NCBI GenBank assembly: GCA_935421135.1
Contig: OW285187.1
Span: 36,086,818 to 36,150,817, forward strand
Source: Bugulina stolonifera
Taxonomy: Eukaryota > Bryozoa > Gymnolaemata > Cheilostomatida > Bugulidae
Direction of reading: 5' to 3'
Length of the DNA stretch: 64,000 nt
Within the stretch, counting starts at the first letter, position 1; the number at the start of each line of letters is the position of its first letter. A program made the position numbers and the translations under genes. Positions 1-64,000 of this stretch are shown here, piece by piece. The notes below the pieces were generated by a model, which saw only the letters and a list, made by a program, of their open reading frames with translations, did no database searches and had not been told where the DNA came from.

Positions 1-400
1 GGTGAGTGTACTGATGACATCATATAGGTGAGTATACTGTTGACATCATACAGGTGAGTATACTGATGACATCATATTATGCAGTAGGTGAGTATACTGA
101 TGACATCATATTATGCAGTAGGTGAGTATACTGATGACATCATATGCAGTAGGTGAGTATACTGATGACATCATACAGGTGAGTATACTGATGACATCAT
201 ATGCAGTAGGTGAGTATACTGATGACATCATATGCAGTAGGTGAGTATACTGATGACATCATATGCAGTAGGTGAGTATACTGATGACATCATATAGGTG
301 AGTGTACTGATGACATCATATAGGTGAGTATACTGATGATATCATACAGGTGAGTGTACTGATGGTATCATACAGCTGAGTATACTGATGACACCATAGT
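1..400. repeat. Minisatellite in glucosylceramidase intron, units of about 26-34 bp
   Basis: About 13 head-to-tail units built on GGTGAGTATACTGATGAC followed by ATCATATGCAGTA or shorter variants. Each full unit has a donor-like AG|GTGAGT and an acceptor-like ATGCAG on the gene's strand. The array runs off the left edge of the window. Confidence 0.9.
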
Positions 401-1233
401 ATTACGTAGTATGCACTGTATATTATGATATATGTTAGTACTATTATGTAGTATACACTGTATATGATATATGTTAGTACTATGTAGTATAATTATACAC
501 TGTATATGATATAATATGTTAGTACTATGTAGTATATACACTGTAGTGAAACTATAACAGGTGCTCTTTGACGCAATGCGCCTGGCCATCTGGCTGAGTG
601 CAGTTGTACCGTTGCGCTCTTTGACCCTTGACTTTGCGCCGGGCGCGGCGCGATGTGCGGGCAGATTCGTCTGCTGGACAGTTTGTGTTTGACTCTTGGC
701 GTAGACAGTTGAGATTATTTTTGTATCTTGATCTAGTAAAACATGTATTTAAAGATTGAAAGGAAGCTAATAGTCTTGACTATAGTAAAACTGTGTATTC
801 TTGGGTTTAGCGTGAATCTTCACTGGTATCTTTATTTACTAAGTTTTATTATTCTTATTGGCAAAATGACACCTTCAAGACTATTAGCTTCCTTTCAATC
901 TTTAAATACATGTTTTACTAGATCAAGATACAAAAATAAACTCAACTGTCTGCGCCAAGAGTCAAACACAAACTGTGCAGCAGACGAATCTGCCCACACA
1001 TCACGCCGCGCCCGGCGCAAAGTCAAGGGTCAAAGAGCGCAACGGTACAACTGCACTCAGCCAGATGGCCAGGCGCATTGTGTCAAAGAGCACCTGTTAT
1101 AGTTTCACTACATACACTGTATATGATATATGTTAGTACTATATAGTATACACTGTATATGATATATGTTAGTACTATGTAGTATGACTGTATATGATAC
1201 ATTAGTATTGTATAGTATACACTGTATATGATA
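400..1233. repeat. Short AT-rich tandem repeat flanking a foldback element
   Basis: Units of the type GATATATGTTAGTACTATGT with GTATACACTGTAT occur at 400-545 and again at 1110-1230. They are split by the inverted-repeat element at 546-1108. All of this lies in the intron before the first visible glucosylceramidase exon. Confidence 0.8.
546..1108. mobile_element. Foldback/MITE-type element with ~230-bp terminal inverted repeats
   Basis: The left arm begins GTGAAACTATAACAGGTGCT and the right end is its reverse complement, AGCACCTGTTATAGTTTCAC. The match continues, with few mismatches, for about 230 bp per arm (546-775 against 880-1108), around a spacer of roughly 100 bp. TA flanks both ends (544-545 and 1109-1110), consistent with a TA target duplication. 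The arms are GC-richer than the surroundings. No transposase is encoded; the open frame at 743-1102 is formed by the arm itself. Confidence 0.85.
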
Positions 1234-1234
1234 G

Positions 1235-1836
1235 GATCTGCAGAACTGGGTGACTGGTTGGACCGACTGGAACATTGCCTTAAATATGTCTGGTGGACCT
1301 AACTGGGTGAATAACAACGTGGACAGTCCGATCATAGTGGACTATACTAAGGATGTATTCTATAAACAACCAATGTACTACATTCTAGGCCACTTCAGGT
1401 AAGGACCACAGTGTTAGTATATCTATTGGGAGTAACAGTAGAATGTCAATACTATAATATGTTCATGCTCTTACTTATGTTTTTGACAGCAAGTTCCTGA
1501 CTCCTGGGTCTGTTAGACATGAAATGCATGTTAAAGGAGTTAAATCCACGGGTGTTGTGTTCTCTACTCCAGAGAAATACATGGTTATGGTGCTGTTTAA
1601 CAAGTAAGTGTATTACACATTACCCTTTATATACATTATGTACATGTATGTACTGTATCAAGTGGTGTGCTTAGTATATCCATATTGTAGGTGTTGACTG
1701 TACTTTACTATACATGTGCTATACTGTACATTGTAGAGGGAGCTCTGATGAAGACGTTGATATTACTGATGGTAGCAAGGTGTTTACTGTAGCTGTCAAG
1801 GCCAGATCTATTAACACTGTAATATGGAATCACTAA
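1235..1836 (+). CDS. Glucosylceramidase-like (GH30), C-terminal exons only
   Basis: Lysosomal glucosylceramidase hydrolyses glucosylceramide to glucose and ceramide. Three exons are visible: 1235-1398, 1490-1603 and 1737-1836, with GT-AG boundaries and compatible phases, giving 125 residues ending IWNH and a TAA stop. The first exon carries [28 protein letters not shown] and [13 protein letters not shown], which are hallmark segments of the GBA1 family C-terminal half. The later exons give SKFLTPGS and the C-terminal beta domain. The catalytic glutamates belong to exons left of the window and cannot be assessed. The intron before 1235 is unusually repeat-filled. The gene converges on the minus-strand gene ending at 2415. 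The family is very clear; the exact member is not. Confidence 0.93.
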
Positions 1837-2414
1837 CTTTAGCTTCTGAAGACTGTTTATATTTATATCATTCATGTATACATCTATATAATATTATTAT
1901 ATATTTACAATGTATGCTTCAGTATTGTAATTCCAAGCCAAAACTCCAGAGTGATTATATTTTTATAAAAGATGCAGTTATAAATCTATTTAAATTGGTT
2001 TTATTTTCTATTATCAGTTATCCAGTTATGCATTGCAGTGGATACACTATTAGTTGTCTTCTCTTGGAATATGTTCTATTCATTACAGATTTGTGTTGTT
2101 CACATACACATAGATATGATTATGTTAGTTTAGGTAATTGTCAATGTTGATATACTCTATAATACTGTTACAATGATAATCATGTGTATAACTACATGTA
2201 CTTCTCTGTGAAAGGAATAATATATGATTGTGCAAGTAGGACAATTATAATATAATATTTATTTGATTGTGAGAGATGGACAAAACTAGACAGTGTACTG
2301 TTACAACCATAACACATGTAATATACTGTACACACACCATATTTACATATTTACACTATATAATAATACACAGATATGACATAAAATATACACGATTGTA
2401 TTACGAACATGGAG
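1837..2414. other. Convergent 3' intergenic region
   Basis: AT-rich sequence between the glucosylceramidase stop and the L3MBTL copy 1 stop. It probably holds both 3' UTRs. TTTATT at 2258-2263 reads AATAAA on the minus strand and could be the L3MBTL copy 1 polyadenylation signal. The open frame at 1824-2150 overlaps the last exon in another frame and looks spurious. Confidence 0.5.
2258..2263 (-). promoter_or_regulatory. Candidate polyadenylation signal for L3MBTL copy 1
   Basis: AATAAA on the minus strand, about 150 bp beyond the stop codon at 2415. This is a motif match only, in AT-rich DNA. Confidence 0.4.
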
Positions 2415-5400
2415 CTAGTCCAGGTTCAGTTTATATCTGAAGATCTCAATGCCTGCGTTTATGATTATAGCAGCACCTAGTATAATGTTTAACCTGCGGG
2501 TCAAATCCCTGGTCTGCATTAGCAAGAAAGCTTTACCATCTACTTCCTGCAAGCAAATAATATTTAATGTACATGACTGTATATGTATATACATACAATT
2601 GAGTATAATAATACACTTTACATACATATAATAGACAGTATACAAAATGTAGGAAGGAGTGTAAGACAATACCTGTTCATTAAAGACATTAGACATGTGC
2701 TCAGTCCATAACTCCGCCCGTATTATCTTTGAAACAAAGTCAGTAACTTGCTGACTCGTCCACAGAGGTACTTGAGCTGCGTCTACTTCAGCCGCTCCTC
2801 GCACCACATTCTCCTTGAGTGACATCTCAAACTCCTTCTGCTCCCTTGTCTTACGGTTACCATATGGAGAACATACTGCACTGTGGATAGCATCCTGCAG
2901 TGCATTGTGGGCTCGTTCTATAATAGACAGATGGACCAATAGAATTGGTCACAACTTTCATAGTTTTTCCCCTTTTCTATTAGTGTTTAGGTACATGGAG
3001 AACAAACAGAGATGCTATTAAATTATAAATAAACATGCATATAATATATTATAGATTGATATGCATTTAACCCGTACATATATTTACATATTACACATAA
3101 CTCGCGTATATACATGTACGTATATACGTGTACGTATATACATGTACGTATATACATGTACGTATATACATGTACGTATATACATGTACGTATATATTAC
3201 TAATAACTCGTGTATATATTTATTGCTACATGACAGTATAACTCACGTTTAACTTCTTCCCTTGATGGGGGATGAGTTGCTCTTTCATCTGCTACCAGAT
3301 GAGGAGGAGGAAGCCCTTCAGCAGAGGGCGCTCCAGTAACCACTAATACTGGCTCAGCTACTGTAGCAGTGACACTGATAGGCTCTGCAATACCCGACTC
3401 TGATGAGGTCACTCGTGGTCTCACAGTAGTTTTCCTACTCCTTGCTCGACTATTTCTTGATGCCGCACCTGCTCTACTGGTTCTAGCTCCGCCTACCTTC
3501 GCACCAGCCACTTGGTCTCCCAGATATCGCATTACTCGCTCCTGATTGGTTGGAGCTAGTGGACACCCGGATATTGTATAGTGCACTGGGTACTTTCCCG
3601 TTATATGGCCAGAGCCATCACAGCCTGCTGTTGGACAGCCTCCCACACTACTGAAACATACGATACCACAGGCTACAGTTTACACCTCTACACAGGTTAC
3701 AGTTTACACCTCTACACAAGCTACAGTTTACACCTCCACACGAATAGTACACTCAGTAAAACACAGCGTAATTCTACTGCACATACACACAGATGAAGTT
3801 CACTTACAGCATTTGAAGAAGCCAAATGCAAACTAACACAATTTTCTGCAAACACATATTGATGAAGTAAAATGTTTTCTTTAAAGAAGTCATCATAACT
3901 CAAGTAAAATGCAAACTAAAACAGCCAGCTGAAAGTGGAAGGTGGAATGACTTCTCTATCCAAACCCCTAATTTATGTCACAGTAGGTCAGCAAGCTATG
4001 TATTAGATAGCTTCCTGTTAGCCAGCTAGCTGTTAGCTATATTACAGGTATATAGAGTATAACACCTTGAAGAGGGTGTCATAACTGACACTAGTAAGAG
4101 AGTAGTACATACCTGGCATCTATTGCAGGTGGTTGAGGAGTACCACCAATAGCTGTGCTGCTGCTGCCTTCCTGCTCCAGAAGTTGCTGACCCAGCAGTC
4201 TGTCAGGAAGTATACTCTCCTTACGAAGATTCAGGTCGGAATAAGGGCATCCTAACAAACTACAATAATATATACAGTATATATCCTAACAAACTACAAT
4301 AATATATACAGTATATATCCTAACAAACTACAATAATATATACAGTATATATCCTAACAAACTACAATAATACATACAGTATATTATATCCTAACAAACT
4401 ACAATAATATATACAGTATATATCCTAATAAACTACAATAATATATACAGTATATATCCTAACAAACTACAATAATATATACAGTATATATCCTAACAAA
4501 CTACAATAATATATACAGTATATATCCTAACAAACTACAATAATACATACAGTATATATCCTAACAAACTACAATACTATATACAGTATATATCCTAACA
4601 AACTACAATAATATATACAGTATATATCCTAACAAACTACAATAATATATACAGTATATATCCTAACAAACTACAATAATACATACAGTATATATCCTAA
4701 CAAACTACAATAATATATACAGTATATATCCTAACAAACTACAATAATATATACAGTATATATCCTAACAAACTACAATAATACATACAGTATATATCCT
4801 AACAAACTACAATAATACATACAGTATATATCCTAACAAACTACAATAATATATACAGTATATATCCTAACAAACTACAATAATATATACAGTATATATC
4901 CTAACAAACTACAATAATATATACAGTATATATCCTAACAAACTACAATAATATATGCAGTATATATCCTAACAAACTACAATAATATATACAGTATATA
5001 TCCTAACAAACTACAATAATATATACAGTATATATCCTAACAAACTACAATAATATATACAGTATATATCCTAACAAACTACAATAATACATACAGTATA
5101 TATCCTAATAAACTACAATAATATATACAGTATATATCCTAACAAACTACAATAATATATACAGTATATATCCTAACAAACTACAATAATATATACAGTA
5201 TATATCCTAACAAACGACAATAATAGATACAGTATATATCCTAACAAACTACAATAATATATACAGTATATATCCTAACAAACTACAATAATATATACAG
5301 TATATATCCTAACAAACTACAATAATATATACAGTATATATCCTAACAAACTACAATAATATATACAGTATATATCCTAACAAACTACAATAATATATAC

Positions 5401-8400
5401 AGTATATATCCTAACAAACTACAATAATATATACAGTATATATCCTAACAAACTACAATACATATATACAGTATATATCCTAACAAACTACAATAATATA
5501 TACAGTATATATCCTAACAAACTACAATACATATATACAGTATATATCCTAACAAACTACAATAATATATACAGTATATATCCTAACAAACTACAATAAT
5601 ATATACAGTATATATCCTAACAAACTACAATAATACATACAGTATATATCCTAACAAACTACAATAATATATACAGTATATATCCTAACAAACTACAATA
5701 ATATATACAGTATATATCCTAACAAACTACAATACATATATACAGTATATATCCTAACAAACTACAATAATATATACAGTATATATCCTAACAAACTACA
5801 ATAATATATACAGTATATATCCTAACAAACTACAATAATATATACAGTATATATCCTAACAAACTACAATAATATATACAGTATATATCCTAACAAACTA
5901 CAATAATACATACAGTATATATCCTAACAAACTACAATAATATATACAGTATATATCCTAACAAACTACAATAATATATACAGTATATATCCTAACAAAC
6001 TACAATAATATATACAGTATATATCCTAACAAACTACAATAATATATACAGTATATATCCTAACAAACTACAATACATACATACATATACATAGATATAC
6101 ATGTGCTGTATACTCGTACAATATACAATATACATGTATAACCTATACACTGACATCTTCTATTACTATATACACATGTACAATACATGGTATATTACCA
6201 CACTGATCTCTTATATTACTATGGTACATAGTAAACTCATATCCTATACACATACCTGTGATGTGCTGAGTATTTAGCTCCTTTCACATGCCCGTAACCA
6301 TAGCAACCAGGAGTAGGACAGCAGCCGTTATAGTTTACAATGTGTAGAGGTGTGAGCGGTGGCTGTAGAGGATGTCCAGTTCTCTGGCACCTGGAGATAC
6401 ATAGAGGAGTTGGTCATATTATAGCCTGCTAACTTATAATTATTATATTATAACACTGAGTGATGTCATCAACTCTATAATGTATATATAGCCTTAGCTA
6501 CCCACCAGCCTACTGGGTGAAGGTCGGGGCTGTCTGCATCCTCCCAGTAATCATACTTATTGTCCCAACCACTGAAGTGTATGAGTATTCTGTTATCTAC
6601 AACTTGTAGAACCTGGGCTACCCGCACCAGAAGAGGGTTTCTTTTATCTACGGATTCCAGAACCATGCCGACTTGGAACATGAGCAGATCTCTCTAAAGC
6701 AGGTAATATACAACTGGAGAATACACATGTACATACCACATATACAACTGGAGAACACACATGTACATACCATATGCATGCACTTGTTCACATAGCTATA
6801 GATACCACAGATAAACAACAAGCTGGGATTTCAGGCTCTCAGTTTTAAGCACATTGAGAGGATAACGACATGTACGTACACGCATTACTTCGTGACTTAC
6901 AGGTTTGAAGGTGACTTACAGGTTTAAAGGCGTGGGGAGGAGCAGCCCTAGACTTGGTCTCTTCTGTATAACTGTCCCAAGTAAACCTATCAGGTTGTGG
7001 GTATCCATTGGGAGCTGATAGAATTCTACCGTTCTCCTGACACCAGCCCACATTGTGAATATAGAGGGAGTTGTTGTAGCACCAGTAGTCATACGTATCT
7101 TCCCACCCGTCAAAGTGTATGAGAAGTTTGTCCCCGTACGTATCGGACACCGTAGCTACACAAACCAGAGCATGGTCCTTCACATCCACTGCCTCCAGCT
7201 TGTCACCCACTTGGAACACAGGAGTCAGTGACTGGTACTGTTCAATATAAGTTATAGTAAATGAGTCAGTGACTGGTACTGTTCAACATAAGTCATAGTA
7301 AATGAGTCAGTGACTGGTACTGTTCAATATAAGTTATAGTAAATGAGTCAGTGACTGGTACTGTTCAATATAAGTCATAGTAAATGAGTCAGTAACTGGT
7401 ACTGTTCAACATAAGTTATAGTAAATGAGTCAGTGACTGGTACTGTTCAATATAAGTTATAGTAAATGAGTCAGTGACTGGTACTGTTCAATATAACTTA
7501 TAGTGAATGAGTCAGTGACTGTTACTGTTCAATATAAGTTATAGTAAATGAGTCAGTGACTGGTACTGTTCAATATACGTTATAGTAAATGAGTCAGTGA
7601 CTGGTACTGTTCAATATAAGTTATAGTAAATGAGTCAGTGACTGGTACTGTATGTTATAGCATAAAAACTTGGAACATTTCAGAATAGTTATTGGGTGCA
7701 AAATCACCATTCCGTAGCCATACTGAAGAAAACCAACACCATAATATGATGTATTTGTACAATCATATACATCAAGCTAATTGGTAGATTTATAACTAGT
7801 ACTCGACTGGAATTGGTTGGTTTACAACTAGCACTCACCTGTGGACTGCTGACGGTAAAGATATTGGATGGAGCCGCTTCCGATTTGGACAACTGTAAAT
7901 ACTTGTCCCAAGAGAATGACTCCTTATATACACCTGAATCAGTATAATAGACTAGATGCTCATAGTAAAAAAAATGGTTTCCTCCAATCACAATAATATT
8001 CCACATGCCTCTGACTATTATTCTATTGCTACAGCATCATCTACTAGTGAATCTAACAGAGCACAAGTATGAAGAGAGAGGGAGTTGTCTTACCTTTGGG
8101 TGGCTGAAGAACTTTACCATTCTTAGCACACCATCCAGCAGGGAATATTTCATCAGAGTTGGCATTAGTCCAAAAGTCATAACAGTCCATGTAACCATCA
8201 AAGTGCAGTCTTACCCGATGACCTTTGACCTCTTTGACTGTTACTACACAGAATGCTGTTGGATGTAGTGGATCAATAGCTTCTAACTTCATACCGAGAG
8301 TGAAGAGGTTGACGAATGAGGCTGGGGGCTGTATGTATACAATATAGCAATACAGTACTTTCAGGTCTACCTATGTCAAAGAGAGAGTAGATAACTACCA

Positions 8401-9920
8401 CTACTACTAGCTCTAACATAATGCTATCTAGCAGAGAGTAGATAACTACCACTACCACTAGCTTTAATATAATACTATCTACATGTAGTAGAGAGTAGAT
8501 AACTACCACTACTACTAGTAGGTGCGGTGCAATAGGGGAGTGTGATGGAGGGTGTGAAATATTTTTTGAATTATCCGAGGTTGAATTAAGCAAGTTCAAC
8601 GGTACTAGTATTACATAACATACACTTTGTATTGGATGTAATATACTAGTATTATATCTATAAGAAATGTCAGTATTTGCTGCTGATGGTGTCTCACCTC
8701 TCTAATAAACAGACTCTCTGGTGCAGCAGTTAAACCTTCAGAGCTGAAGAACTCTCCATACCTGAATGCCTTTGGTTTCTTCACTGTAAGACGTACATGA
8801 TACACTCAGCCATATGTAGTATTTTAGACTACTATATGTTAATTATAGTAGTATATTACTTAGTAGTACTTAGTACGGTGATGACCTACTAGAACTGTGC
8901 TGAGGTTTGCATTAGTACACTCATTACACATGTATATATGCATAGCCTGTGATCCATTAGAGCTGCACTACCCACCCTTACTGACTCTCCTGTTATCAAG
9001 GCAGTCCATCCTGAAGTTCTCCTCATAAGCACTCAGATAGGAAGCTTTCTTTTTCTTCCTTTTTCCAGGAGCTCGGGGAGAGCCTGTGTGCTCATTGGTT
9101 GATTTATTAGACGGTTTTGATTGATATTTAGTCTCAGGTTCTGCACAGTCTGGGGAACTGTTTGAGGGTGCACACAAAACGCCCCTGAATTCAAACCATG
9201 ACATAGAGATAGAATACAGCACTGAAACAAGTTTAACCAAAGTAGTCGAAATAGAAAGCAATTAACTTACCCGTGTTTGTCCGCACATGACTGGGAGCAG
9301 TACCTGTCTGGTTGAATGAACTCAGTGGACGGAGCCTCTTTACCACACACTATACACATGGATAGAGTATCTATTGGTATCATCTCTGTAATATTAACAC
9401 AGATATTGTGTATATTTACATAATATACGTCGAATGGAAGAGCAAACATTGTTGTAGGCCAGTAAGGTAAAACATGTATTTATATAGAAGGGAGTTGCTA
9501 GTCAAATCACAAACATATTACAATATGTAGATGTCTAAATACTATATGATATAGCAGAATATAATAATATAGTGTAACATTAACACATCTCAAGAGACCA
9601 TACCATCTTTATATGAGTTATCTCCCTTTACTTGAGTGACACCAGAGGTCGTGCTTGCTGCCTCAACTCCAACCTGGTCACTGCCGACTTCCTACAAATA
9701 CAATCATGTAGTGCATAATGTACACTCTGTATTAGATGTAATATACTAGTATTATATCTATAAGAAACCACCCCCTAGACTGAGGTCCACTATTCAGGTG
9801 ATGATTTACCTTTAGCTCTGCTCCATCTTCCTCATCACCGAGTGTGGTACGTCTGTCTGTTTGTCTTGGTGTTCCTCTGGTCTTTTTAGACTGTCTTCTC
9901 CTTTTAGACTTTGGGGGTAT
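2415..9920 (-). CDS. L(3)mbt-like MBT chromatin reader, copy 1 (5' end not located)
   Basis: L3MBTL proteins bind mono- and dimethyl-lysine on histones and repress or compact chromatin in the nucleus. Exons in coding order: 9810-9920, 9604-9691, 9271-9385, 8982-9184, 8698-8783, 8094-8328, 7839-7933, 6920-7231, 6502-6693, 6256-6383, 4113-4259, 3247-3650, 2673-2917, 2415-2546. All phases agree, giving 830 residues. Domain order: basic tract [13 protein letters not shown] finger (CIVCGKE...[11 protein letters not shown]); three MBT repeats; two CCHHC fingers ([12 protein letters not shown]...HHSLLGCP, then [12 protein letters not shown]...SGCPLA); SAM domain ending YKLNLD. The MBT2 cage residues are present (Asp in AVD; Phe, Trp, Tyr in [12 protein letters not shown]). 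The 9810-9920 exon opens at an acceptor with an in-frame stop just upstream, so at least one earlier exon is missing from this model. Intron 4260-6255 is filled by a 34-bp array. Confidence 0.92.
3100..3200. repeat. TACATGTACGTATA tandem repeat
   Basis: About seven copies of a 14-bp ATATACATGTACGT-type unit in the L3MBTL copy 1 intron between exons 2673-2917 and 3247-3650. The ORFs read through it are low-complexity. Confidence 0.85.
3666..3745. repeat. Short 24-bp repeat beside an exon boundary
   Basis: Three to four copies of TACAGTTTACACCTCTACAC start 16 bp past the exon end at 3650, in L3MBTL copy 1. Confidence 0.75.
4251..6075. repeat. 34-bp satellite made from a splice acceptor and exon start, ~53 copies
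   Basis: The unit is TCCTAACAAACTACAATAAT followed by ATATACAGTATATA (34 bp), repeated about 53 times with few changes. On the minus strand each unit reads TATATTATTGTAG|TTTGTTAGGA. That is the acceptor and first bases of the L3MBTL copy 1 exon 4113-4259, whose own boundary (4259/4260) forms the edge of the array. Confidence 0.95.
7205..7648. repeat. 41-bp array containing the MBT2 exon acceptor, ~10 copies
   Basis: The unit is GAGTCAGTGACTGGTACTGT followed by TCAATATAAGTTATAGTAAAT. On the minus strand it contains GTACCAG|TCACTGACTC, identical to the acceptor and first 10 bases of exon 6920-7231 of L3MBTL copy 1. The real junction is 7231/7232. Confidence 0.93.
8370..8520. repeat. ~48-bp repeat in the intron before MBT1, shared by both L3MBTL copies
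   Basis: Three units around GAGAGTAGATAACTACCACT with a CTA-rich tail. The same array, also about three units, is in the matching intron of copy 2 (49390-49550). Confidence 0.85.
8557..8600. mobile_element. Fragment of a pogo-like MITE end
   Basis: TTTTTGAATTATCCGAGGTT followed by GAATTAAGCAAGTTC matches the terminal repeat of the element at 11985-12341. Only one end is present. Confidence 0.6.
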
Positions 9921-11353: not shown

Positions 11354-11444
11354 TTAGACTACCACATACTACTACTAATTATAGCACAGCTGTATGTAGA
11401 TCATACAAAACATGGCTGCATAAAAGTTGGTGTTTAGTTGGTGA

Positions 11445-26650: not shown

Positions 26651-26651
26651 T

Positions 26652-29208: not shown

Positions 29209-29263
29209 TATACAATCTATCTACTTTCTACGTGTTGGCTACTGTTTAATCTACATGTATCTA

Positions 29264-30634: not shown

Positions 30635-31149
30635 TACATATTCTATCTACTTTCTACGTGTTGGCTACTGTTTAATCTACATGTATCTACATATTCTATC
30701 TACTTTCTACGTGTTGGCTACTGTTTAATCTACATGTATCTACATATTCTATCTACTTTCTACGTGTTGGCTACTGTTTAATCTATATGAATCTATATTC
30801 TATGTACATCAAGTAAGCAATGTGTAGATATAATAAGTACAATATTGTGATGATACATGTTGGGCAGGCCATATATACAAATCTACATATTATATTCTGT
30901 ATTATACATATCCATAACCTACCGCTAGGCTATAAAGGACATACAAGTACACAGTTGTTAGTTATCTTCTCTTGCTAAATGTAAAGTAATACGCTAATAG
31001 TACACAATCTATCAGTACCATATTCTATATAGACCAAGAGACTGATAGTGTGTTAACGTGTTACGTGTAACAGTAATGTCTTTCTGTCAACAATATTATC
31101 ATTCCTTTACGTAGCAAAGTAAGTCATTGTTGTAAAATGTGGCTCTGGA

Positions 31150-42135: not shown

Positions 42136-44363
42136 CTATACTGCATCTACCGATGAGTGACGACTACCTCCGTCTAATGTCTGCAGGTCAAGTGAGTAGC
42201 GAGAGGAAGCAAGGTGCCATTTGCTACAGCTGCAGTCGAGTCTGAGGGAGGCTGCGGAGTTTCTACTCTGGTCTCCGACCTTCACCTCTCTCATTGGCCT
42301 AAGAGCCATCTGCTCATTCTCCAATGAATGTACCGACTTAATAGAGTGGATGTTAAGTGATAGACTTGAGGAACTGCAGGTCAGTAGCAAATTTTCTTCT
42401 CGCAGCTCACATTTGTGTTGTCTGTCTTTGTATCTGTGGGAATTTCCTATTAGATGAGATGCAGAACATTCTGTACTTTCTCTCTCGTCTCTGCCGGTGT
42501 GGCCAGTACTCCCATGTTCCAAATCTTCACCTTCTGGTAGCACTACATCCGCATCTGTATCTGTGTTAAATCCTTCTGGCAGATTTACATCCGTATCTGT
42601 ATCTGTGTTAAGTCCTTCTGCAAATTAAAATTTAGGGTCATAAATCCTCAGAACTTAGTAGAGATAAGCAGGGCTATTGCTCACCAAGTGTTTCTGTTCA
42701 TATCACACAGTGGCTGAGACTAGCTTATAGGAACTGCTTGTGGTAGTACAAGAACTATTTCATGTCCAAATAGCACCAGTGGTAGTGTATACCATAGAGG
42801 TATAGGGGAGATAACTCTATGGTGTATACGGTGCAGCTCAATGCAAACAAACTCATCTTGATGGAGGCCGTCAGTCTATAACCAATGACTTCAGTTTTTA
42901 CAAATATGACTCAAATTAAACTACTAGTAGATGGTGACTAAAGGTAGAAACAGAGTAGCGAATTTTGCACTGTTATTCACCCCGAAATGACGGTGGAGCG
43001 ACAGGGCGTCACAAAATTGAGCGAAAACATCATGTTTGCCCAATATCAAGCATCTTTAATATGTTGTGTTTTGGTCTCAACAACGCTGACTTCTGATTAG
43101 GCAACAAAGTTTTACCAACTCCATTCCGCACTTTTGTTAGTAAACAAAAATTCTAAATTGAGTCGCTGTTATAATGTGATGTGCACGTAGGAGACATATA
43201 TGAAAATAATTGGAAACGCAGTGAAAATATTCAGTAGTCTGATTCAACCTTAATACATATCCTGATTCACAAGTTTGGAACTACTGACCCCCATGGCATT
43301 GTATAACAGACTACTGACCCTCATGGCATTGTATGACAGACTACTGACCCTCATGGCATTGTATGACAGACTACTGACCCTCATGGCATTGTATAACTGA
43401 CTACTGACCCTCATGGCATTGTATGACAGACTACTAACCCTCATGGCATTGTATAACTGACTACTGACCCCCATGGCATTGTATAACTGCTGTATTACCT
43501 GGAGGAGATGTAGCTGTAAGCGCATTCCTTATGGCGGATGATCTACTCTTGTAGTGCAAGTAGCAGAATAACATTATGAGTAGGCCTATAGCAAGAATTA
43601 GCAAGAGTATGATAACTCCAGATAATCCCAGCAACGTCCTGTATTGTGCAATGTCTGTCTCTATTGTCAGTGGTAGGGATCGAGGTGGTGGTAGGTCAGT
43701 GTTGAATTCCTCCAAGGCCACAGAGCAGCGTCCTGCAGACACAGGGACTGTAGAATTATTAAAGAGCAGATCAGTATATCTCTCCCATATGTTTTACACT
43801 CTCAGTTTCCTGCTAGTGCCTGTATGAGTACTACCCATATAGACTATGGAGGGTTACAATGGTGCAAGTTACTCACTGACAATATCCTCAGTATGGCAAG
43901 ATCTTTACAAATAAGCTTATACTCTCGCATAGTGATGGGTACCCCAGAGTTAAATGTTAGTACACAGCTCACCTGCATATGATGTGCTAGTAATGGGTAC
44001 TTCAGCTCACCTGCACCTGCATATAATGTGCTAGTACTGGGTACCTCAGCTCACCTGCACCTGCATATGATGTGCTAGTACTGGGTACCTCAGCTCACCT
44101 GCATATAATGTGTTATCTTGGTCCGGTCTCACTCCACAGTTCATACCCATATAAGCCCCATAATCAGAGATTGTGCCAAGTGTACAGAAACCCTTTGAAG
44201 GGTGTTGCAAGTTTTCACACGAAATATTTCGAATGACTGACGACTTGAGCTGCAGTTCCTGATTGCAGCAAGTCCATTCCTCATCTCCTTCCCACACTGA
44301 TATCCCAAGGCTATGAGAGACTATTGGTAGAGCTAGACATATCACCCACACGACATTCCCCAT
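42136..44363 (-). CDS. Putative type I membrane protein, family not recognised
   Basis: Three exons, 44099-44363, 43499-43747 and 42136-42617, join in phase (1, then 1) to give 331 residues. The start at 44363 is chosen because MGNVVWVICLALPIVSHSLG is a good signal peptide; upstream ATGs at 44411 and 44381 are in frame. The ectodomain (about 21-125) is Cys-rich, with WTCCNQELQ, ISCENLQ, GFCTLG and MNCGVRPD. A single membrane span (LLGLSGVIILLLILAIGLLI, about 127-150) is followed by basic HYKSRSS, as expected for type I topology. The cytoplasmic tail opens with two Asp/Thr-rich 16-18-residue repeats (NTDTDTDVNLPEG, then NTDTDADVVLPEG) and is Ser/His/Glu-rich. Function is unknown; the topology would suit a receptor or adhesion molecule. 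Donors of exons 1 and 2 are both followed by minisatellites. Confidence 0.7.
43265..43492. repeat. 35-bp repeat next to the exon 2 donor of the membrane protein gene
   Basis: About seven units of GACTACTGACCCTCATGGCA followed by TTGTATAACA, beginning 6 bp inside the intron from the donor (minus strand) at 43498. Confidence 0.88.
43965..44120. repeat. ~40-bp array containing the exon 1 donor of the membrane protein gene
   Basis: Units of TCAGCTCACCTGCATATGAT followed by GTGCTAGTACTGGGTACC, three to four copies. On the minus strand each has ATATGCAG|GTGAGCTGA, the exon 1 end and donor; the real junction is 44099/44098. Confidence 0.85.
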
Positions 44364-44699: not shown

Positions 44700-44885
44700 T
44701 TTGCTATGTGTACGGTGAAGTTTGGATGTTACTTACCTCTATGTACAGTGAAGGTCTAATGCTACTTACCTCTGTGTACAGCGAAGGTATAATGTTACTT
44801 ACCTCTGTGTACAGTGAAGGTCCAGTTCTATCTACAAGTATGTATTTGGTATCTCCCTATCTAACTGGCACTCCATGCACAGTGA
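44700..44885. repeat. ~33-bp repeat with minus-strand donor consensus
   Basis: Four units of GTGTACAGTGAAGGTCTAAT followed by GTTACTTACCTCT. On the minus strand each reads ACAGAG|GTAAGTA. This could be a multiplied 5' UTR exon end of the membrane protein gene, but no transcript evidence is available. Confidence 0.7.
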
Positions 44886-45770: not shown

Positions 45771-48700
45771 TTAAGATGTAGGTCTACCCAGCACTCTATT
45801 TATAACTCTAATGCTATTATATATAATAACAGCTGGGCCCAGTTTGATGCCTAGCCTGAGGGTAATGTCCTTCTGCTGCAGCTGTAGGTAGGCTGCTCCA
45901 TCTATTCCCTGTAAATAACAAGTCATAACATTACATGATACTTCACCAGTCTACTACCAGTATATCACCAGTCTACTACCAGTATATCACCAGTATACTA
46001 CCAGTACATCACCAGTGTACTAACAGTACATCACCAGTGTACTACCAGTACATTACCAGTGTACTAACAGTACATCACCAGTGTACTACCAGTACTTCAC
46101 CAGTGTACTACCAGTGCATCACCAGTGTACTACCAGTACATCACCAGTGTACTACCAGTGGTACTACCACATCACTCTCCCACTCACCTGGTCAATGAAC
46201 TTGCGGACAGCCTCGTCTGGAAGCTGTGGTGTTATTGATTTGATGTACTCCGCTACTTGTTGGCAAGTCCAGGAGGAAACCTGCGAGTAGGGTATGTTGT
46301 TACACCTTGGTAGTAGGTGGATATTCCTTTCCCAGCTAACTGGTAGGTCTTTAGTCTTGTTTCTCACGGGTACAGCAGGTAGATACACAGCATCGTATAT
46401 AGCGTCCTGGAGTACCTCATGGGCAGCTAGAAATAGAGTAGTCACAGTGTGTTGTTATACCAATCAGCTGACCAAAGAGAGGGACACTTTGGCACAATGT
46501 ATACATGCTCTAGCATATGTGATTGTATAGTATAAATTACCACTACTTGCTAACTTACTTCGCTTGGCTGGAGGAGGCGGCATTGCTTGTGATGCAGAAG
46601 GACTCCTCTTGGGTGGCCTCACAGCAGCAGAGATGTTTGCTGTAGTTGGACCCTTACCAGCCAATGGGAAATGGGAAGTTTTACGGGGTGCTTCAGCAGT
46701 AGTCACTGAGACGTCAGTCGTATGTCTACGTGATCTTTTGTTCCTACGACCTTGACCTGATGTTGTGCGACCCCGCTCTCTTTTGATCCCAGCCCCACTA
46801 GTATCAACACTGACTGTTTTAATCAGCTTATTCTGGTTGACCTCTGCCAGCGGACACCCGGAGATGGTAAAGTGTGTGGGGAATTTTCCCGTGACGTGCC
46901 CAGTGCCATCACAGCCTTCCGTTGCACACGGACTGAATAACATAACAATTGATATCAACTGCAATGAATGCAGAGTTGTGTAGAATTATGGAGAGCATAT
47001 AAATATGGATTGTAATGTGGTAGAACATCAACACACCTGTATGTGCTGTCAACTGAGGCAGAACCGTTTGACTTCCTCTCAGTCTTGTTTGTTTGCAGTC
47101 GATCGATTGGTTTATAGTCTTTATTCATATTCATATCGGAGTAGGGGCACCCAAACAGACTACAAACACACGGTACTAGATATAATTACAACACAAAACA
47201 GTCTACTGAGCCGAGCATCACAATATGAGTATGTTGGTGTTCAACATGGAGTCCTATACACATACCTGTGATGTGCTGAGTATTTAGCTCCTTTCACATG
47301 CCCGTAACCATAGCAACCAGGAGTAGGACAGCAGCCGTTATAGTTTACAATGTGTAGAGGGGTGAGAGGTGGCTGTAGGGGATGTCCAGTTCTCTGGCAC
47401 CTGGAGATACATAGAGGGGTTGGTTATATTATACCCTGCTAACTCATATTATAACCTGTATACCACTAAATGATGTCATCAACTCTATAATGTATATATT
47501 ATAGCCTTAGCTACCCACCAGCCTACTGGGTGAAGGTCGGGGCTGTCTGCATCCTCCCAGTAATCATACTTATTGTCCCAACCACTGAAGTGTATGAGTA
47601 TTCTGTTATCTACAACTTGTAGAACCTGGGCTACTCGCACCAGAAGAGGGTTTCTTTTATCAACGGATTCCAGAACCATGCCGACATCAAACTGTAGAAT
47701 TGTTGCCTACAATTAGGTAGTAATAATATATCACCTCTGAGGTTGCGGTCCTATTGGTTGACACCAGTCTTTAGAGTCTTTAGAGAGAAGACAACTTTAA
47801 TGACATGTACTGTTAGCAGAAAGAATGGAATAATAACTGTAATAGCTATTACTGTAATACGTTGTTTATATTTGAGGAATGTCTATGGAGTGAGCTATGG
47901 AGGTCTCAGTCGCCCACCAAGACCTAAGTAACCCAGCTCATGCATCACTGTTAGATATACATGCAAGCCAAAATAGTACATTATACAATGATTGGATAAC
48001 CTGCTAGGTTTAAAGGTGACTTAGAGCTTTAAAGGTGAGTTACAGGTTTAAAGGTGAGTTACAGGTTTAAAGGTGAGTTACAGGTTTAAAAGTGACTTAC
48101 AGGTCTAGAGGTGACTCAGAGGTTTAAAGGTGACTTACAGGTATAAAGGTGACTTACAGGTTTAAAGGCGTGGGGAGGAGCAGCCCTAGACTTGGTCTCT
48201 TCTGTATAACTGTCCCAAGTAAACCTATCAGGTTGTGGGTATCCATTGGGAGCTGATAGAATTCTACCGTTTTCCTGACACCAGCCCACATGGTGAATAT
48301 AGAGGGAGTTGTTGTAGCACCAGTAGTCATACGTATCTTCCCATCCGTCAAAGTGTATGAGAAGTTTGTCCCCATACGTATCGGACACCGTAGCTACACA
48401 AACCAGAGCGTGGTCCTTCACATCTACAGCCTCCAGCTTGTCACCCACTTGGAACACAGGAGTCAGTGACTGGTACTGTTCAACAGAAGTTATAGTGGAT
48501 GAGTCAGTGACTGGTACAGTTCAATATAAGTTATAGTAAATGAGTCAGTGACTGATACAGTTCAATATAAGTTATAGTAAATGAGTCAGTGACTGGTACA
48601 GCTCAACATAAGTTATAGTAAATGAGTCAGTGACTGGTACAGTTCAATACAAGTTATAGTAAAGTAATCAGATGAGTAAAACCCACCTCACTAGTACAAA

Positions 48701-51700
48701 CAGCAAATATTTCCTCAGGAGCAGCAGTAGACTTGGATACCTGTAGATATTTCTCCCAGTTGAACGAGTCTTTAGTCATACCTGTAAAATATATATACAC
48801 ATGAGGTGACTGTGCTGCTGCTGCCACCTGCTCCAAGGATACTGTGGAAGGGGAGGACAACCCACTAAAACCATTTCTCTGTTAATTATGTGCTCTCATC
48901 ACCTTATTTGTATTATATGGGAAAATATCATTTTATTTAAAATAAAATTGGGCATAAAAATATGCAGTAACTTATTGCTATAACAATATACATGCAGAAA
49001 TTCACTACTATAATAATGTCTCTATATTACATGTACACTGACCCTTCGACTGCTCAGAGCTATAAGGCTATATAACTATAACTCAAGTATGAAGAGAAAG
49101 AGATGTCTTACCTTTGGGTGGCTGAAGAAGTTTACCATTCTTAGCACACCATCCAGCAGGGAATATTTCATCAGAGTTGGCATTAGTCCAAAAGTCATAA
49201 CAGTCCATGTAACCATCAAAGTGCAGTCTTACCCGATGACCTTTGACCTCTTTGACTGTTACTACGCAGAATGCTGTTGGATGTAGTGGATCAATAGCTT
49301 CTAACTTCATACCAAGAGTGAATAGGTTGACGAATGAGGCTGGGGGCTGTATGTATACAATATAGCAATACAGTACTTTCAGGTCTACCTATGTAGAAGA
49401 GAGAGTAGATAACTACCACTACTACTAGCTCTAATATAACACTATCTAGTAGAGAGTAGATAACTACCACTACTACTAACTCTAATATAACACTATCTAG
49501 TAGAGAGTAGATAACTACCACTACTACTAACTCTAATGTAGTACTATCTACAGTGTAAAGAGGGCAGGGTAGAGAGGGTAAATAACCAAACAACTATATT
49601 ATTATTTTACTAACTCAACTATGCTGACACCCACCTCTCTAATAAAGAGTTCTTCAGGAGCAGCCTCTAGTCCCTCCTCAGCGAAGAAAGGTCCATATTT
49701 AAACATCTTTCCTTTTTTCTCTACAGTATGTTATGACACATGTGTAGTCGGTATACAGTACTATAACTACTAAATCTATCTATCTCTCTACCACGTTATA
49801 AACTCCGGTTATAAACTGACACTCACTGTTTATTTTCCAGTCGTCCAATCCACTCATGCGTAGATTCTCTTCGTATGCACTGAGATAGGAAGCCTTCTTT
49901 TTCTTCCTCTTTCCAGGAGCTCTGTGAGAGCCTGTGTGCTCATTGGCCGATTTGTTAGACGGTTTAGATTTCTTTGACTTGGAAGAATCACCAAATTCTG
50001 AGGAACTGTTGGATGTTGTGCACAAGACCTCTCTAAAGTATGGAAACAGAGTATATCTCTAAAGTATGGAAACAGAGTATATCTCTAAAGTATGGAAACA
50101 GAGTATATCTCTAAAGTATGGAAACAGAGTATATCTCTAAAGTATGGAAACAGAGTATATCTCTAAAGTATGGAAACAGAGTATATCTCTAAAGTATGGA
50201 AACAGAGTATGTCTCTAAAGTATGGAAACAGAGTATATTTCTAAAGCATGGAAACAGAGTAAATTTCTAGAGTATGGAAACAGAGTATATCTCTAGAGTA
50301 TGAAAACAGAGTATGTCTCTAAAGTATGGAAACAGAGCATATCTGAACTGCAGCTGTATTTAGTGTATATTCTACAACATTGTATGATTTACAAATACTC
50401 TGCAAGCTTTACACTCTCACCCGTGTTTATCCGCACAAGAAAGCGAGCAATATTTGTCCGGAAATATGAATTCTACAGAGCGATCCTGTTTTCCACATAC
50501 TAGACATGTTGACAATGTTGAACCTAAAATAATTCAAATGAAGTTATAGTTGGTAGGGCAGCCTGACATATATAACTGTCACGTAGGCCTACACACAATG
50601 TGGTAGGCCTGTATGTAGTATAATAGTATGGCATAAAATATATATTACAATGCAGGAAATTGTATGTATGTAGATATGATTTACCAGGAGTATGTTCCAA
50701 TGCAGCTACTGCTACATCTACGGCAGCAGCAGTAGCAGTAGAGTCATCAGCTACGTCATTCTCTGCAATGTGAGTAAATTGGGTCGTATTATCAGTATCC
50801 ATCTTGTCTTCACTGTATGTACAATCTCCCTGTAGCATATCAATTGCCTATATACATATCTACATGTATTTGTACACCATAATGTAATATAAATGTATAT
50901 ATGTGTAATGAATAGGCCGTCATGTCAGTGACATAAGCACTTACGGCTCCAAGGGACATTAGTATCACTGTATGCTCATGTGTTGGAGTTTCAAAAATGA
51001 CATGCTCACAATTTCATAAATAGTAGGCTATAAGTTGTGATATTTTATATTCAAGTCAGCACAAGTCTACAAGACTTATATTCAAGTCAGCACATGTCTA
51101 CAAGATTTATGTTCAAGTCAGCACATGTCTACAAGACTTATATTCAAGTCAGCACAAGTGTACAAGACTTATATTCAAGTCAGCACAAGTCTACAAGACT
51201 TATATTCAAGTCAGCACAAGTGTACAAGACTTGGCAAATCCTTTAAGGTAATAATATTCTTCTCAGTCTCTCCTGTAACTGTATGTATGCCATAGTTAGT
51301 CAACAGCATATGAATACTGTATGTACATGTATATGTGGAGCTGGTGATGAGCAGTCGTAACACTGTAGATACTAGATACATGCACATATATATAGGCTAT
51401 AGCCTATAGCCTATATTACTTAGAATTAGCATACAAATGACTCAACACTACACTGTATAAAGGAGGAAGAACTAGATGTGCATGTGTACTAAAAATGGTT
51501 AAAACCACATTTGTACATGTAGTACAACAATAAAACTGAAACAGCATAAAGGTCGGTGTTGTAGGGGTGGATAAAGGCTTGTGTTGTAGGGGTGGATAAA
51601 GGTCGGTGTTGTAGGGGTGAATAAAGGTTGATGAATAAGCTACTGAGGCCTACCTGCCCACTGTGCAGAAGAGTTTGCTGGCTGGGTGAACTCTTGTTCT

Positions 51701-53150: not shown

Positions 53151-53151
53151 C

Positions 53152-58285: not shown

Positions 58286-58289
58286 CAAC

Positions 58290-58665: not shown

Positions 58666-59457
58666 ATGCTTTATTGCTCTGATGCCATTTCAGATACATA
58701 AAACTGACAACAATGTCTTGCTCCAGCTGACCACATTCCCTGTGTGCTAGTTGTGGGAGAGCTACATTATTCATGTAATACTTTGCAGGCTGTACATGAT
58801 ATATAAAATATAAATGCTACCAAATACCACACAGTATTAATCTAATTATAGTACAACAGATAGCCTGTATCAGTAAAGTGTAGATTTGTCTAAATATGCA
58901 AGTTGTGCTGGATTATATAAATATCCAAATTGCCAAGATTGCCGTACCATCGATTTTCACTACGATAGGCCTATTAATTGGTAGAAATGGCCTTCAGAAG
59001 ACTTCACTCTCATTGGTACACTCTCGTATATCCTAAAAATCATCGGTTCATTTATTTTATTATTACAGCTTTCAGCTATCATCTAGTGTAAACTGACTAG
59101 GATGAAGCCTACTAACATCCAAGTCAGTTGGTCTCAGAATTCATCTAATCTTTTCGAAATTTTTTATTTATAAGCCAACATATGGCAATTGCTAGCAATC
59201 GATCATTAGAGTAATAATTTTATTCTAACCATTTTAATTTTATTTTAGCGATATTGTTTTCAAATCTGATCACAATTGCTAAGTGTTGGAACACTTGTGT
59301 GTTATAGACTGGAGGCTGGGGGTGGGGGACTCATGCAGTACAAATTTATTTATAATCAAGCAGGAAAAGCATATGGAAAGTGTTGACACAGTTGTTGTTA
59401 CAAACTCTACCAGTAAATTAAACTGCCAATGAATTAGGGGATAGTGAAACTTCCTCA

Positions 59458-59785
59458 ACTAAAGGTAAGTACTAACTCGTATTATAGTCAGAGATGTAAC
59501 TAAAGGTAAGTACTAACTCGTATTATAGTCAGAGATGTAACTAAAGGTAAGTACTAACTCGTATTATAGTCAGATATGCAACTAAAGGTAAGTACTAACT
59601 CGTATTATAGTCAGAGATGTAACTAAAGGTAAGTACTAACTCGTATTATAGTCAGATATATAACTAAAGGTAAGTACTAACTCGTATTATAGTCAGATAT
59701 GTAACTAAAGGTAAGTACTAACTCGTATTATAGTCAGAGATGTAACTAAAGGTAAGTACTAACTCGTATTACAGTCAGAGATGTG
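59458..59785 (+). repeat. 41-bp array whose unit looks like a complete minimal intron, 8 copies
   Basis: Unit AACTAAAGGTAAGTACTAAC followed by TCGTATTATAGTCAGAGATGT. Each has AAAG|GTAAGT (donor consensus), TACTAAC (consensus branch site, overlapping the donor) and TATTATAG (acceptor). Confidence 0.92.
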
Positions 59786-60724: not shown

Positions 60725-60805
60725 TGTCATGGGGTTGTGTTATGGTGTTGTGTTATGGGGTTGTGTTACGGTGTTGTGTTACGGTGTTGTGTTATGGGGT
60801 TGTGT
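60725..60805. repeat. Short GTTGTGTTATGGG repeat
   Basis: About six units of 11-15 bp. Confidence 0.8.
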
Positions 60806-63727
60806 GTTGGGTTGGGCCTCCTTTATATTACAAGCAGAGAATAATGGCCATTCCCATGGTACATAATTCCAAAGTAGGGAATGGTAAGTCTACAGGTAGT
60901 GGAGTGCAGACATATCACTAGCAGCTAAAACATTGAGTATATCTCAAATTTGCTTTTAATGGACTCCATTGTTCTTCCAATGCTGAATGTAAAGTTGGTC
61001 TGATGTACACTAAAAGTTTATGTTGAAAAAGTATGATTGAATTTACTGTAATTGCACTGAAATTGGGGTTTTAATTACTCTGTGTCATAATTAGTTGTAG
61101 AAGACCACAAAGAGTTCAATATTTAGAGGAAACCTTACAAAACAAGCGTTTACATTTTTGGGGCAAAAAAGGTAGGATTATTAGTCTTAATTGCTGGAGA
61201 GAACGACATGCGTTTACAAACGTAGCCCATAGTAGGACCTACCAAAGTCTGTGGTGTATACCTAAACTAAACCAACCATTTTATGACATATTTCAGAAAT
61301 GAAATACGACTTGGACTTGAAGCTTACAACAAATGAATAATGATAATATAGAATATAAGTTTATAATCCGGTAGTAGAAGTATTGCAGTTAGTAATTATA
61401 ATCAATCAATAATGAATATTGAACATTTACATACATACAGGCAATGAACAGGGTAACAGTAATAGGAGACCACTACAAGGTGTATCTTGTTATTATAGAA
61501 CAATAAACACTTACCTAACTTTTATACAAATTTTGTGAATAATTTATAACAAGTCATTAACAATGCTGCCAATGTAACAACAGAAGGGTGTAAACTGATT
61601 AGTAACAATGGTATGCATGGCTTGTTATGGCCAACAATGCTATGCTAGCTGCAGACCAGAAATACTTTATTATTATTGTTATCATTATTGTATTTACAGC
61701 ATAATTTATCCACATGACGTTGAGTACTTATAAGCTCACAGTCTCAAGTAGGACTCACAGTCACAGTCACAGAAATGACTACCAGTATCACAGTTTCTCT
61801 GGCAGAATGACACATAGATTGTTTATATTACTAGTCTGTTTGTCTGTCTGTTACCTCTGTCTGTTACCTCTGTGATTGATCATGTCATATAACGATTGTG
61901 TTGAGGAATGAGTTCAACTGCAAAGGTTTTAGTTTTAAATTGTGTCCATTACGTACACCCTTGTTCATTTTACTCTCTGACTGGGTTACTTCTACTACCT
62001 AGAGTTAGATTTATTCTGTTATCGTCTGAAGCATTTTTTGATTTATAAATTTATGTTCTTATGCTGCTCAGTAAAATCAGTTTGAGTTAAAATCTAAACT
62101 TTACAAACTGGAATTGATGATTGCAATTTTTGACACTAGTCAGGCTAAATGAATTGCTATTATATGATGTCAACGCGTATAACACTGTCTTAAAATAACA
62201 TAACGCTTATAGCAAATTTAGTAAAAGCCGTTTGATTACTGTCACAGTATTATATACAGTTATTAGTGATGAAACTAGATTACTAATGAGATAACTCAAA
62301 GTAATAATACTCACAACTAAACTTTAATTTACGCTAAGAAATTTAGTGATTAGAATATGAAATGAGAATGGGTAGTGCTTGGTAGACACTGACAATGGTG
62401 TATTAGTCAACTTTGACAATACATTGTATTATAATTGGACAAAATATATTCACAAGCAAAAAGATAGTTGTATTATTTAGCTGTGGCATGTAGAGATTAT
62501 TATCATATGCTGTGCATGTGATTGGGCAACACAAGGACAGGAAGTGAGCTGGTCATAGATAGAGTTCTGTGATGGTAATAGATACATATCCTACATCAAC
62601 AGCTTCTCTATAATTACTCTACTTTATATACAAGTGTACCTGTAGTTCTGTTACCTACTTGTACCCTTCTGTCATGTATTATCTACTGTGGAAATGTTGG
62701 GGATGATAGTTTATGTATCATTGCAAACAGGTTTGTAATTATTGCCACCATTACTATGTGTGAATATTTTTTTTGATTTTATATCATTACATCTAGCAAT
62801 GATAGTAATACATATTCTGTTCTTATGTGTGAATACTGCAATTTATTATAGTATATCAAAACAACCAGGAATGAACTACAATTATAATATACAGGTCAGT
62901 AGGAGTAATATACTAGACCTGCTGTATTTCAAACTAACCTTATTATAGATTAGTTATAAAGCTGTCACCCCCGCCTGAGGTACTAATACATGCATATAGG
63001 CAATAAATAATGGTAGGCTATAGGTAGCTTATCACCAACTGTTGCCATAGCTCATGACATCAGTGAGGTATTTTGGGCTGTATTCCACAATTATTTTGCA
63101 CAAGTAAATTAGTTTAGTAAGTTGGTTTAATCAATACTGCACTTACTGCACTAGTTTTAGTTTCACAGTGCTCTTGATTATTTATATCAGCTAAGGATTG
63201 TATGCTTTATATAAGGGATACCTATACGTTGTTTGACCATTCCCCTCTTCGCTGGTCTCACTTGGGGAGTAAATTTAAATGTAATGCTATGCAATATACC
63301 TATTGATAAAATATATAAATACAATAGGCCTGTAAAATAAGTCTGCACAAATAATGAATATCAATATGTAAATAAAGCCATAATATGGTTTAAACATGGC
63401 AAAATTCCATATGTTTAATTCTGCAGTTACAGTATTTTATGTATAATTAAATGCTTTTGGTCTAAACTTGTTGAATCCTCGCTTGCATTCACCCAATAAT
63501 ACGCAAACTCACCGTGGGGAACAGAAAACTCAACTCAACTGAAAGGCTTTAGCCTACACCATTTTCCATAAACACTTTGATACTTGCTAATTAATAGAAA
63601 AACAACATTATACACACCATACTTTAAGTACATGGAAGAACATATGCCAATCTATCATTTAAGAAGTCTAAATATTCTGTAAAATTGCTCACGACTGAAA
63701 TATAATCGTTTAACTTGTTTCACTCAC
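60806..63727. other. AT-rich DNA, no gene recognised
   Basis: No coding exon, array or transposon end was recognised. It may be intron if the candidate exon at 63728-63754 is real. Confidence 0.45.
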
Positions 63728-63754
63728 CAAATGATTTCTGTTCAGATCGGCCAT
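63728..63754 (-). CDS. Possible first coding exon of a minus-strand gene
   Basis: On the minus strand ATGGCCGATC begins a 9-codon frame MADLNRNHL that ends at a strong donor, TTG|GTGAGTG. The ATG has a purine at -3 (CAAAATGG). No downstream exon could be matched to it, so this is a weak call based on the start and donor context only. Confidence 0.3.
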
Positions 63755-64000
63755 TTTGTCAATCATGAATGTTAGCCAGCGAGCTCCTTGCAAAGAGAGG
63801 TCATTAGGTCAACACGAGCAGGTTCATTGGTCCTTGCATACGCGGATTAAACGTCATATTAAAACCATAACAAATCTTATCCTCAACTGGATTCCGATTT
63901 GTAGACTTAGACTAGACCCTTTACAGCTAAATTTACTTGAATTTCAACATTGATGTTGGTCACAAACATTTAAGATAAATAGGATTACCAGGCCTACTTG

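Follow-up and report, generated by a model that had tools for sequence, protein, structure and literature searches.

Minisatellite arrays spanning or abutting exon–intron junctions in a repeat-rich region of the Bugulina stolonifera genome

The window analysed here is a stretch of 64,000 nucleotides of the bryozoan Bugulina stolonifera (contig C1, positions 36086818-36150817), located ca. 0.66 Mb from the end of this 36.8-Mb contig in a 235-Mb genome of 27 contigs. The element under study is a class of minisatellites that span or abut exon–intron junctions and recur in several genes of the window and its flanks. The class is real, with 15 of the 86 junctions of a curated gene set, i.e., about one in six, touched by an array, while the excess relative to chance expectation is modest and varies with the null model. 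These arrays are probably ordinary minisatellites that grew in a domain rich in repeats, some of them happening to start at or span a junction, and no junction-specific process is needed to account for them.

Arrays were detected with Tandem Repeats Finder (TRF) in the window together with 16 kb of its left and 10 kb of its right flank. Genes were modelled with a small gene finder self-trained on 250 kb, and the junctions were then refined by means of the reading frame, a paralogue, or a homologue; throughout, junctions are those predicted from DNA, and they were curated with the arrays already known. From homology, the gene at the window start and in the left flank is taken to be GBA/GH30-like, and the one in the right flank is presumably PCMT-like. 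The window also comprises two paralogous genes, A and B, coding for proteins with MBT domains (Pfam MBT was found in three gene A exons and zf-C2HC in a fourth), a gene for an SLC34 sodium-phosphate cotransporter (match to PDB 9z60, E 4e-100), and a gene for a membrane protein. The window and flanks contain 77 non-redundant TRF arrays per 90 kb (8.6 per 10 kb); 16 random 10-kb loci have from 0 to 8 each, although two of these loci surpass the window and its flanks in array coverage.

A first-pass annotation of the window had proposed eight junction arrays. TRF recovered all of them, at the positions given or close to them, and each touches a predicted junction, while several details had to be corrected. 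In gene A, which lies on the minus strand, 54 copies of a 34-bp unit (4249-6089) span the acceptor of the exon encoding (S)LLGCPYS. The reading frame and the match to paralogue B place this acceptor, TTGTAG/TTTGTTAGGAT (the slash marks the junction), before 4259 and not at 4251 as initially annotated; 11 exon nucleotides are included in the unit, and AG is kept in 52 of the 53 other copies. The second MBT exon of gene A has arrays on both sides. Its donor (AAACCT/GTAAGT, intron start 6919) is spanned by 2.1 copies of a 19-bp unit (6892-6930, minus strand), with 11 exon nucleotides copied, and its acceptor (TTGAACAG/TACCAGTCACTG, 7237) by 10.5 copies of a 41-bp unit (7222-7651, minus strand), with 16 exon nucleotides copied, or 10 if the in-phase alternative ACCAG/TC, the gene finder's choice, is used. 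The second MBT exon of gene B, also on the minus strand, is bordered by a donor-spanning array paralogous to that at 6892-6930 (48006-48168, donor 48157, 8.6 copies of 19 bp with 11 exon nucleotides) and an acceptor-spanning one (48460-48663, acceptor 48475, five copies of 41 bp with 16 or 10 exon nucleotides). Another gene B array on that strand, 50030-50344 (12 copies of 26 bp), abuts the acceptor TACTTTAG/AGAGGTCTTG of an exon whose start, 50032, was placed by frame against gene A, and has only three exon nucleotides in common with it.

The 41-bp unit is common to 7222-7651 and 48460-48663, and the 19-bp unit to 48006-48168 and 6892-6930, because the MBT genes are paralogues with ca. 95% identical tracts at these places. 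Since 7222-7651 and 48460-48663 carry one unit, the eight arrays proposed initially represent about seven founding events. The accompanying claim that the arrays reflect a mechanism and not a repeat family holds at most loci in that the units differ, but it is wrong for the MBT pair. Identity of A and B amounts to 71-80% in the remaining aligned exons, versus ca. 95% in the three tracts around the MBT exons (6242-6672, 6892-7433, and 8064-8517 in A, corresponding to 47252-47685, 48130-48671, and 49084-49529 in B). Two of these tracts start or stop inside arrays (6892, 7433, 8517), as if minisatellites bordered gene-conversion tracts in this pair.

The SLC34 gene, on the plus strand, has three arrays. 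The first, 34637-34771 (17-bp unit), abuts a donor (GAG/GTATGTACAC), its first base being that of the GT, and contains no clear exon copy. The second, 35035-35126 (4.3 copies of 22 bp), abuts an acceptor, stopping 2 bp short of the intron end, so that AG is outside the unit and the next exon runs from 35129. The third, 38296-38568 (6.8 copies of 40 bp), spans the acceptor of the exon starting at 38551, and its unit consists of 22 intron nucleotides, including the branch-point-like GGCTAAC and TTACAG, and 18 exon nucleotides, GTCCATTCATGTTTATGA. The donor of the membrane-protein exon on the minus strand (TATATGCAG/GTGAGC, 44098) is spanned by three copies of a 44-bp unit (43970-44103). In the GBA-like gene, on the plus strand, a donor-spanning array of about 14 copies of a 26-31-bp unit (1-398) includes copies of ca. 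15 exon nucleotides (DDIIQ); the exon end, ...GATGATATCATACAG/GTGAGTGTACT, is located in the left flank, window base 1 being the last exon base. An acceptor-abutting array of 36-bp units in the same gene (1112-1233) stops 1 bp short of the last intron base, with AG outside the unit and the exon continuing from 1235 as GATCTGCAG. A related unit is present at 400-545, the two being separated by an inverted-repeat insertion (542-1112; 238-nt arms, 97%, 95-nt spacer). The arrays 1-398, 1112-1233, and 35035-35126 belong to the class but were not among the eight of the first-pass annotation, which described the junction as copied at every array; at 50030, however, just three exon nucleotides are shared, and 34637 starts at GT with no clear exon copy. 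The units range from 17 to 44 bp, and not from 19 to 41 bp as had been given.

That the class recurs across genes was borne out by five arrays in flank genes and by one at a random locus. In the left flank, the GBA-like gene has an array at -5219 to -4291, whose 27-nt unit follows AAG/GTACGT, and another at -2735 to -714, which stops 3 nt short of the intron's end. The unit of the former is in frame and stop-free (VRLLTSIKE), and the use of distal donors would add 9-residue repeats. In the right flank, three arrays of the PCMT-like gene (67494, 71145, and 71704) each begin 2-3 nt before a donor GT. The random locus, L018, lies on another chromosome, 3 Mb in, and contains an array at an acceptor (4128-4230) whose copies include exon sequence; the random 10-kb loci have few good gene models and were mostly of little use for a general junction count. 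Among 14 proteasome-gene loci, picked regardless of arrays, there are three usable arrays, none of which touches a junction, the nearest beginning 10 nt into an intron (L036, L039, and L040 are without a gene model, the L040 donor was set by eye, and a weak L032 array, score 43, was omitted).

The proposed founding event would be a short tandem duplication (17-44 nt) crossing or abutting an exon–intron junction. It would be tolerated, since the exon edge retains an intact junction while the surplus copies become part of the intron. The array would then enlarge and homogenise like any other minisatellite, and since the C1 stretch is minisatellite-rich with many short introns, many junctions would be hit. 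The founding process was probably slippage or microhomology-mediated duplication, and the arrays appear to be young and neutral, with the exon-proximal site presumably the one used.

The frequency of touched junctions was compared with chance in a curated set of 43 introns, 86 junctions, and 30 arrays. The set omits an uncertain GalT-like gene, 44707-44821 (29-nt low-score exon), the exonic array 42530-42620, and three gene B introns whose arrays (48006, 48460, and 49400) are paralogous to those of gene A; 400-545 was merged with 1112-1233. Arrays were regarded as touching at -30 to +4 of a junction and as having an edge there at -3 to +4. Two nulls were used: founding units distributed uniformly over the present introns minus the array (null 1), or founded in introns of 135 nt (null 2), the median of the 23 array-free introns, which as a founding length is an assumption. 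Fifteen of the 30 arrays touch a junction, while 6.3 are expected under null 1 (P 5e-5, 2.4-fold) and 10.4 under null 2 (P 0.06, 1.4-fold). No excess was found among the 30 curated arrays for those with at least five exon nucleotides, the criterion suggested in the first-pass annotation, of which there are seven versus 4.4 (P 0.12) or 7.2 (P 0.60) expected, so the junction-specific mechanism proposed in the first-pass annotation is not required. A donor is touched in 8 of the 43 introns. Within the window touching amounts to 10 of 17 arrays versus 5.0 expected under null 1 (P 0.006), and in the flank genes to 5 of 13 versus 1.4 (P 0.005) or 4.2 (P 0.42). Uncurated models gave touching in 12 of 40 arrays versus 5.5 (P 0.003) or 8.9 (P 0.16), edges in 6 of 40 versus 1.5 (P 0.003) or 2.4 (P 0.03), and no excess of arrays with at least five exon nucleotides (5 of 40 versus 3.8 or 6.1). 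This count omits L015, L016, L022, L023, L025, L027, and L028-L041, as well as periods below 10, genes scoring below 15, and exons below 3. L022 (C2:10.00-10.01 Mb) looks, from the spacing of its predicted exons, like a single tandem repeat of ca. 983 bp.

Several observations weigh against a purely incidental origin. Edges at -3 to +4 were found for 8 of the 30 curated arrays versus 1.7 (P 1.6e-4) or 2.9 (P 0.005) expected, a count made unblinded, and in the flank genes alone for 4 of 13 versus 0.38 (P 3e-4) or 1.2 (P 0.02). Touching in the window alone is slightly above the short-intron null as well (10 of 17 versus 6.2, P 0.048), and two of the three PCMT-like introns with donor arrays are long. 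Ordinary growth does not explain this preference for exact junction edges well; microhomology may do so. The alternative is that duplication is directed to junctions, with AG/GT or CAG/G acting as a microhomology seed, or with transcription or R-loops at junctions promoting duplications. The excess of exact edges under both nulls and the three PCMT-like donors, each with an array starting 2-3 nt before GT, speak in its favour, but arrays with at least five exon nucleotides are not in excess and none of the three usable arrays of the 14 proteasome-gene loci touches a junction. Junction-directed duplication appears rather unlikely, and the genome-wide counts of splice-site words bear on it from both sides.

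The donor word AGGTRAGT occurs at 31109 sites, 3051 of which (9.8%) start triples with gaps of 4-34 nt, versus 0.95% for the reversed word. GAGTRAGT, which is rarely a donor, is matched in composition and has the GTRAGT core in common; 6.7% of its sites are in triples, and 1.7% of those of its reverse. The corresponding values for GGATGAGT and its reverse are 0.64% and 2.2%. The acceptor word TTTRCAGG starts 207 triples at 18271 sites (1.1%; reversed, 0.4%), and a 25-bp period, frequent among the matches listed, suggests one dispersed family. The reversed-word control, with its 17-fold difference (3051 versus 176; for AGGTGAGT alone, 1055 versus 125), looked decisive at first. It was rejected because in local arrays reversed AGGT words (TGGA) are depleted (0.38-fold) and GTA/TAC words enriched (2.06-fold in local array units versus 0.7-fold for others), and the latter enrichment implies that much of the donor-word signal is composition. 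No sense bias of TACAG was found in genic arrays (8 sense and 12 antisense, of 41). Moreover, one AGGTGAGT triple (48033-48078) is antisense in the gene B donor array, hence the word counts include non-donors.

The small genome-wide difference between the two matched words (9.8% versus 6.7%) and the low proportion of acceptor-word triples stand against junction-directed duplication. Counted per distinct array, and extrapolated from the matches listed, the proportions are 2.2% of non-array sites for AGGTRAGT and 1.3% for GAGTRAGT. Taking the surplus of AGGTRAGT sites relative to GAGTRAGT (ca. 43%) as true donors, one obtains an enrichment of ca. 2.4-fold per true donor, near the local value. 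A sharper contrast in favour of directed duplication was found at C1 0-2.49 Mb, where triples occur at 19 of ca. 289 AGGTRAGT loci versus 1 of ca. 184 GAGTRAGT loci (P 6e-4; the locus numbers were read by hand and extrapolated from the matches listed), so that composition does not explain the donor arrays there. A plus-strand recount of C1 0-1.07 Mb gave 5 of 62 versus 0 of 40 loci (P 0.08). The word signal is, however, confounded by the location of the arrays in genes, and gene location may explain the rest, in that donors are genic, which the matched word often is not.

Runs of at least three exact AGGTRAGT at steps of 12-42 bp extrapolate to 580 arrays genome-wide. On C1 there are 18 triple arrays of AGGTGAGT, including the antisense one of gene B; 11 of the 18 are no more than 1.5 Mb from one end or the other, the terminal ones clustering at 0.34-1.39 Mb and 36.09-36.71 Mb. 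A comparison of chromosome ends, 11 of 18 versus 1 of 18 for GAGTRAGT among the matches listed, was given no weight, because the GAGTRAGT matches listed break off near the end of C1. It is a tentative and somewhat doubtful proposition that there are hundreds of loci with donor-seeded arrays, that AG/GT is the duplication seed in near-terminal domains, and that a sizeable share of the donors there is arrayed.

Ordinary growth within introns is illustrated by the MBT pair. The gene A intron 4260-6255 carries an array, while the same intron of gene B (47160-47265, 106 nt) is array-free; conversely, the gene B intron 50033-50684 carries an array, and its gene A counterpart (9158-9270, 113 nt) does not. 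Both introns are thus short and array-free in the other paralogue, and the arrays there grew in old introns. This contradicts, at these two introns, the suggestion of the first-pass annotation that new introns may be born from repeats. Intron birth in the manner proposed by Rogers, i.e., from an exon segment that contains AGGT and is duplicated in tandem, would fit the GBA array at -5219 to -4291, whose first 27-nt unit, placed after AAG/GTACGT, is seemingly coding, judging by homology to human GBA. As an origin of these introns it is nevertheless highly improbable, the two MBT introns being common to paralogues with and without arrays, and none of the curated introns being a single array from donor to acceptor.

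The copies of splice sites in the arrays, referred to as decoys, were walked in 15 arrays, including the paralogue pairs, and are mostly canonical. At five donors the canonical decoys number 34 of 34, 12 of 13, 39 of 39, 12 of 12, and 16 of 17, and at acceptors 10 of 10 (MBT A 7237), 11 of 12 (MBT B 50032), and 52 of 53 (MBT A 4259). The arrays with at least 90% canonical decoys comprise, besides these three acceptors, GBA -5217, GBA 2, the three PCMT-like donors, the SLC34 donor 34637 (GT in 8 of 8, with low scores), the membrane-protein donor (2 of 2), and MBT A 6919 (1 of 1). Elsewhere, GT is kept in five of the eight decoys walked in the gene B donor array 48006-48168 and AG in only three of six in the SLC34 acceptor array 38296-38568. 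At 48460-48663 of gene B, the first AG is lost in four of four decoys, which read AACTG or AGCTG, AACAG being retained in the copy next to the exon. At the GBA acceptor -710 none of the 48 decoys is canonical in register, AG being found two bases further on.

Redundant donors and acceptors, as the first-pass annotation had supposed, are present in DNA, but of nine arrays only one, PCMT-like 67496 (p 6e-4), has splice-motif columns whose conservation significantly exceeds that of the remaining unit; for MBT A the 4251 register was used in this test, not that of 4259. At GBA -5217 and at the MBT B donor the motif changes more than the rest of the unit. With conservation in one array of nine, there is little to suggest that the copies are under selection. 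Selection retaining redundant splice sites for isoform regulation, poison exons, or mutation buffering would agree with the mostly canonical decoys, with the stop-free, in-frame GBA unit, and with the conserved PCMT-like motif. Recent growth alone would, however, yield canonical decoys; the remaining eight arrays are without significant motif conservation, decoys are broken in gene B (4 of 4, first AG) and SLC34 (3 of 6), and the majority of units are not multiples of 3. Selection of this kind is quite improbable.

The first-pass annotation knew of no named system matching these arrays, yet published precedents exist. In the human 6-16 gene (IFI6/G1P3), minisatellite units supply splice donors, and the use of downstream units results in isoforms (Turri et al. 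1995, as reported in PMC4526556 and cited also in PMC3618361). The likeness consists in a tandem array of 10-100-bp units at a junction, the other units here mostly having canonical sites; the difference is that one gene is concerned there, and here many genes, both donors and acceptors, as read from DNA. In human segmental duplicates, minisatellites at exon–intron boundaries were associated with 27 intron modifications (De Grassi and Ciccarelli 2009, PMC2812944). The units of ca. 30 bp at exon–intron boundaries, their copy number differing between paralogues, resemble ours, and splicing is altered there; the cases are supported by transcripts and partly interpreted as intron formation, in contrast to the growth within old introns described here. 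The third precedent is the gain of introns through tandemly duplicated AGGT segments (Rogers 1989, ATP2A1, 24-bp exonic arrays of fission yeast, and potato RdRp; PMC4974935). Short tandem duplications take place at AG/GT, and the GBA 27-bp array has a likeness in fission yeast, where introns extend over several 24-bp duplicates; new introns are formed there, while the two MBT introns tested here predate their arrays.

No other papers on such arrays as a class were found in literature titles and abstract openings, the searches being partly incomplete and the subscription literature mostly uncovered. Human introns originating from tandem arrays are reportedly, judging by its title, the subject of a 2007 paper by Zhuo et al. 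The pattern, real and recurring as it is, can mostly be explained by repeat growth in short introns, with precedents in human and yeast.

Two other regions of the window deserve mention. At 59457-59784 lies a 41-bp array whose unit, with AGGTAAGTACTAAC...TTATAG, contains donor-, branch-point-, and acceptor-like words, in a place with no gene model. Nested inverted repeats occupy 29258-30640, and the open reading frame 30027-30281 resembles the end of a Tc1-type transposase.

Arrays of this kind are a warning for gene annotation, as gene models misplace junctions inside them, which happened in MBT A at both the acceptor 4259 and the donor 6919. At the same time, dozens of near-identical sites beside one junction, such as the 52 extra acceptor copies at 4259, constitute a natural trial of site choice by the spliceosome, and the same arrays test the tolerance of junctions to short duplications. 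With 15 touched junctions among the 86 curated, such tests would be possible within one animal. If it is true that AG/GT seeds arrays, splice sites in the genome of B. stolonifera would be competing in a natural experiment that is still under way.

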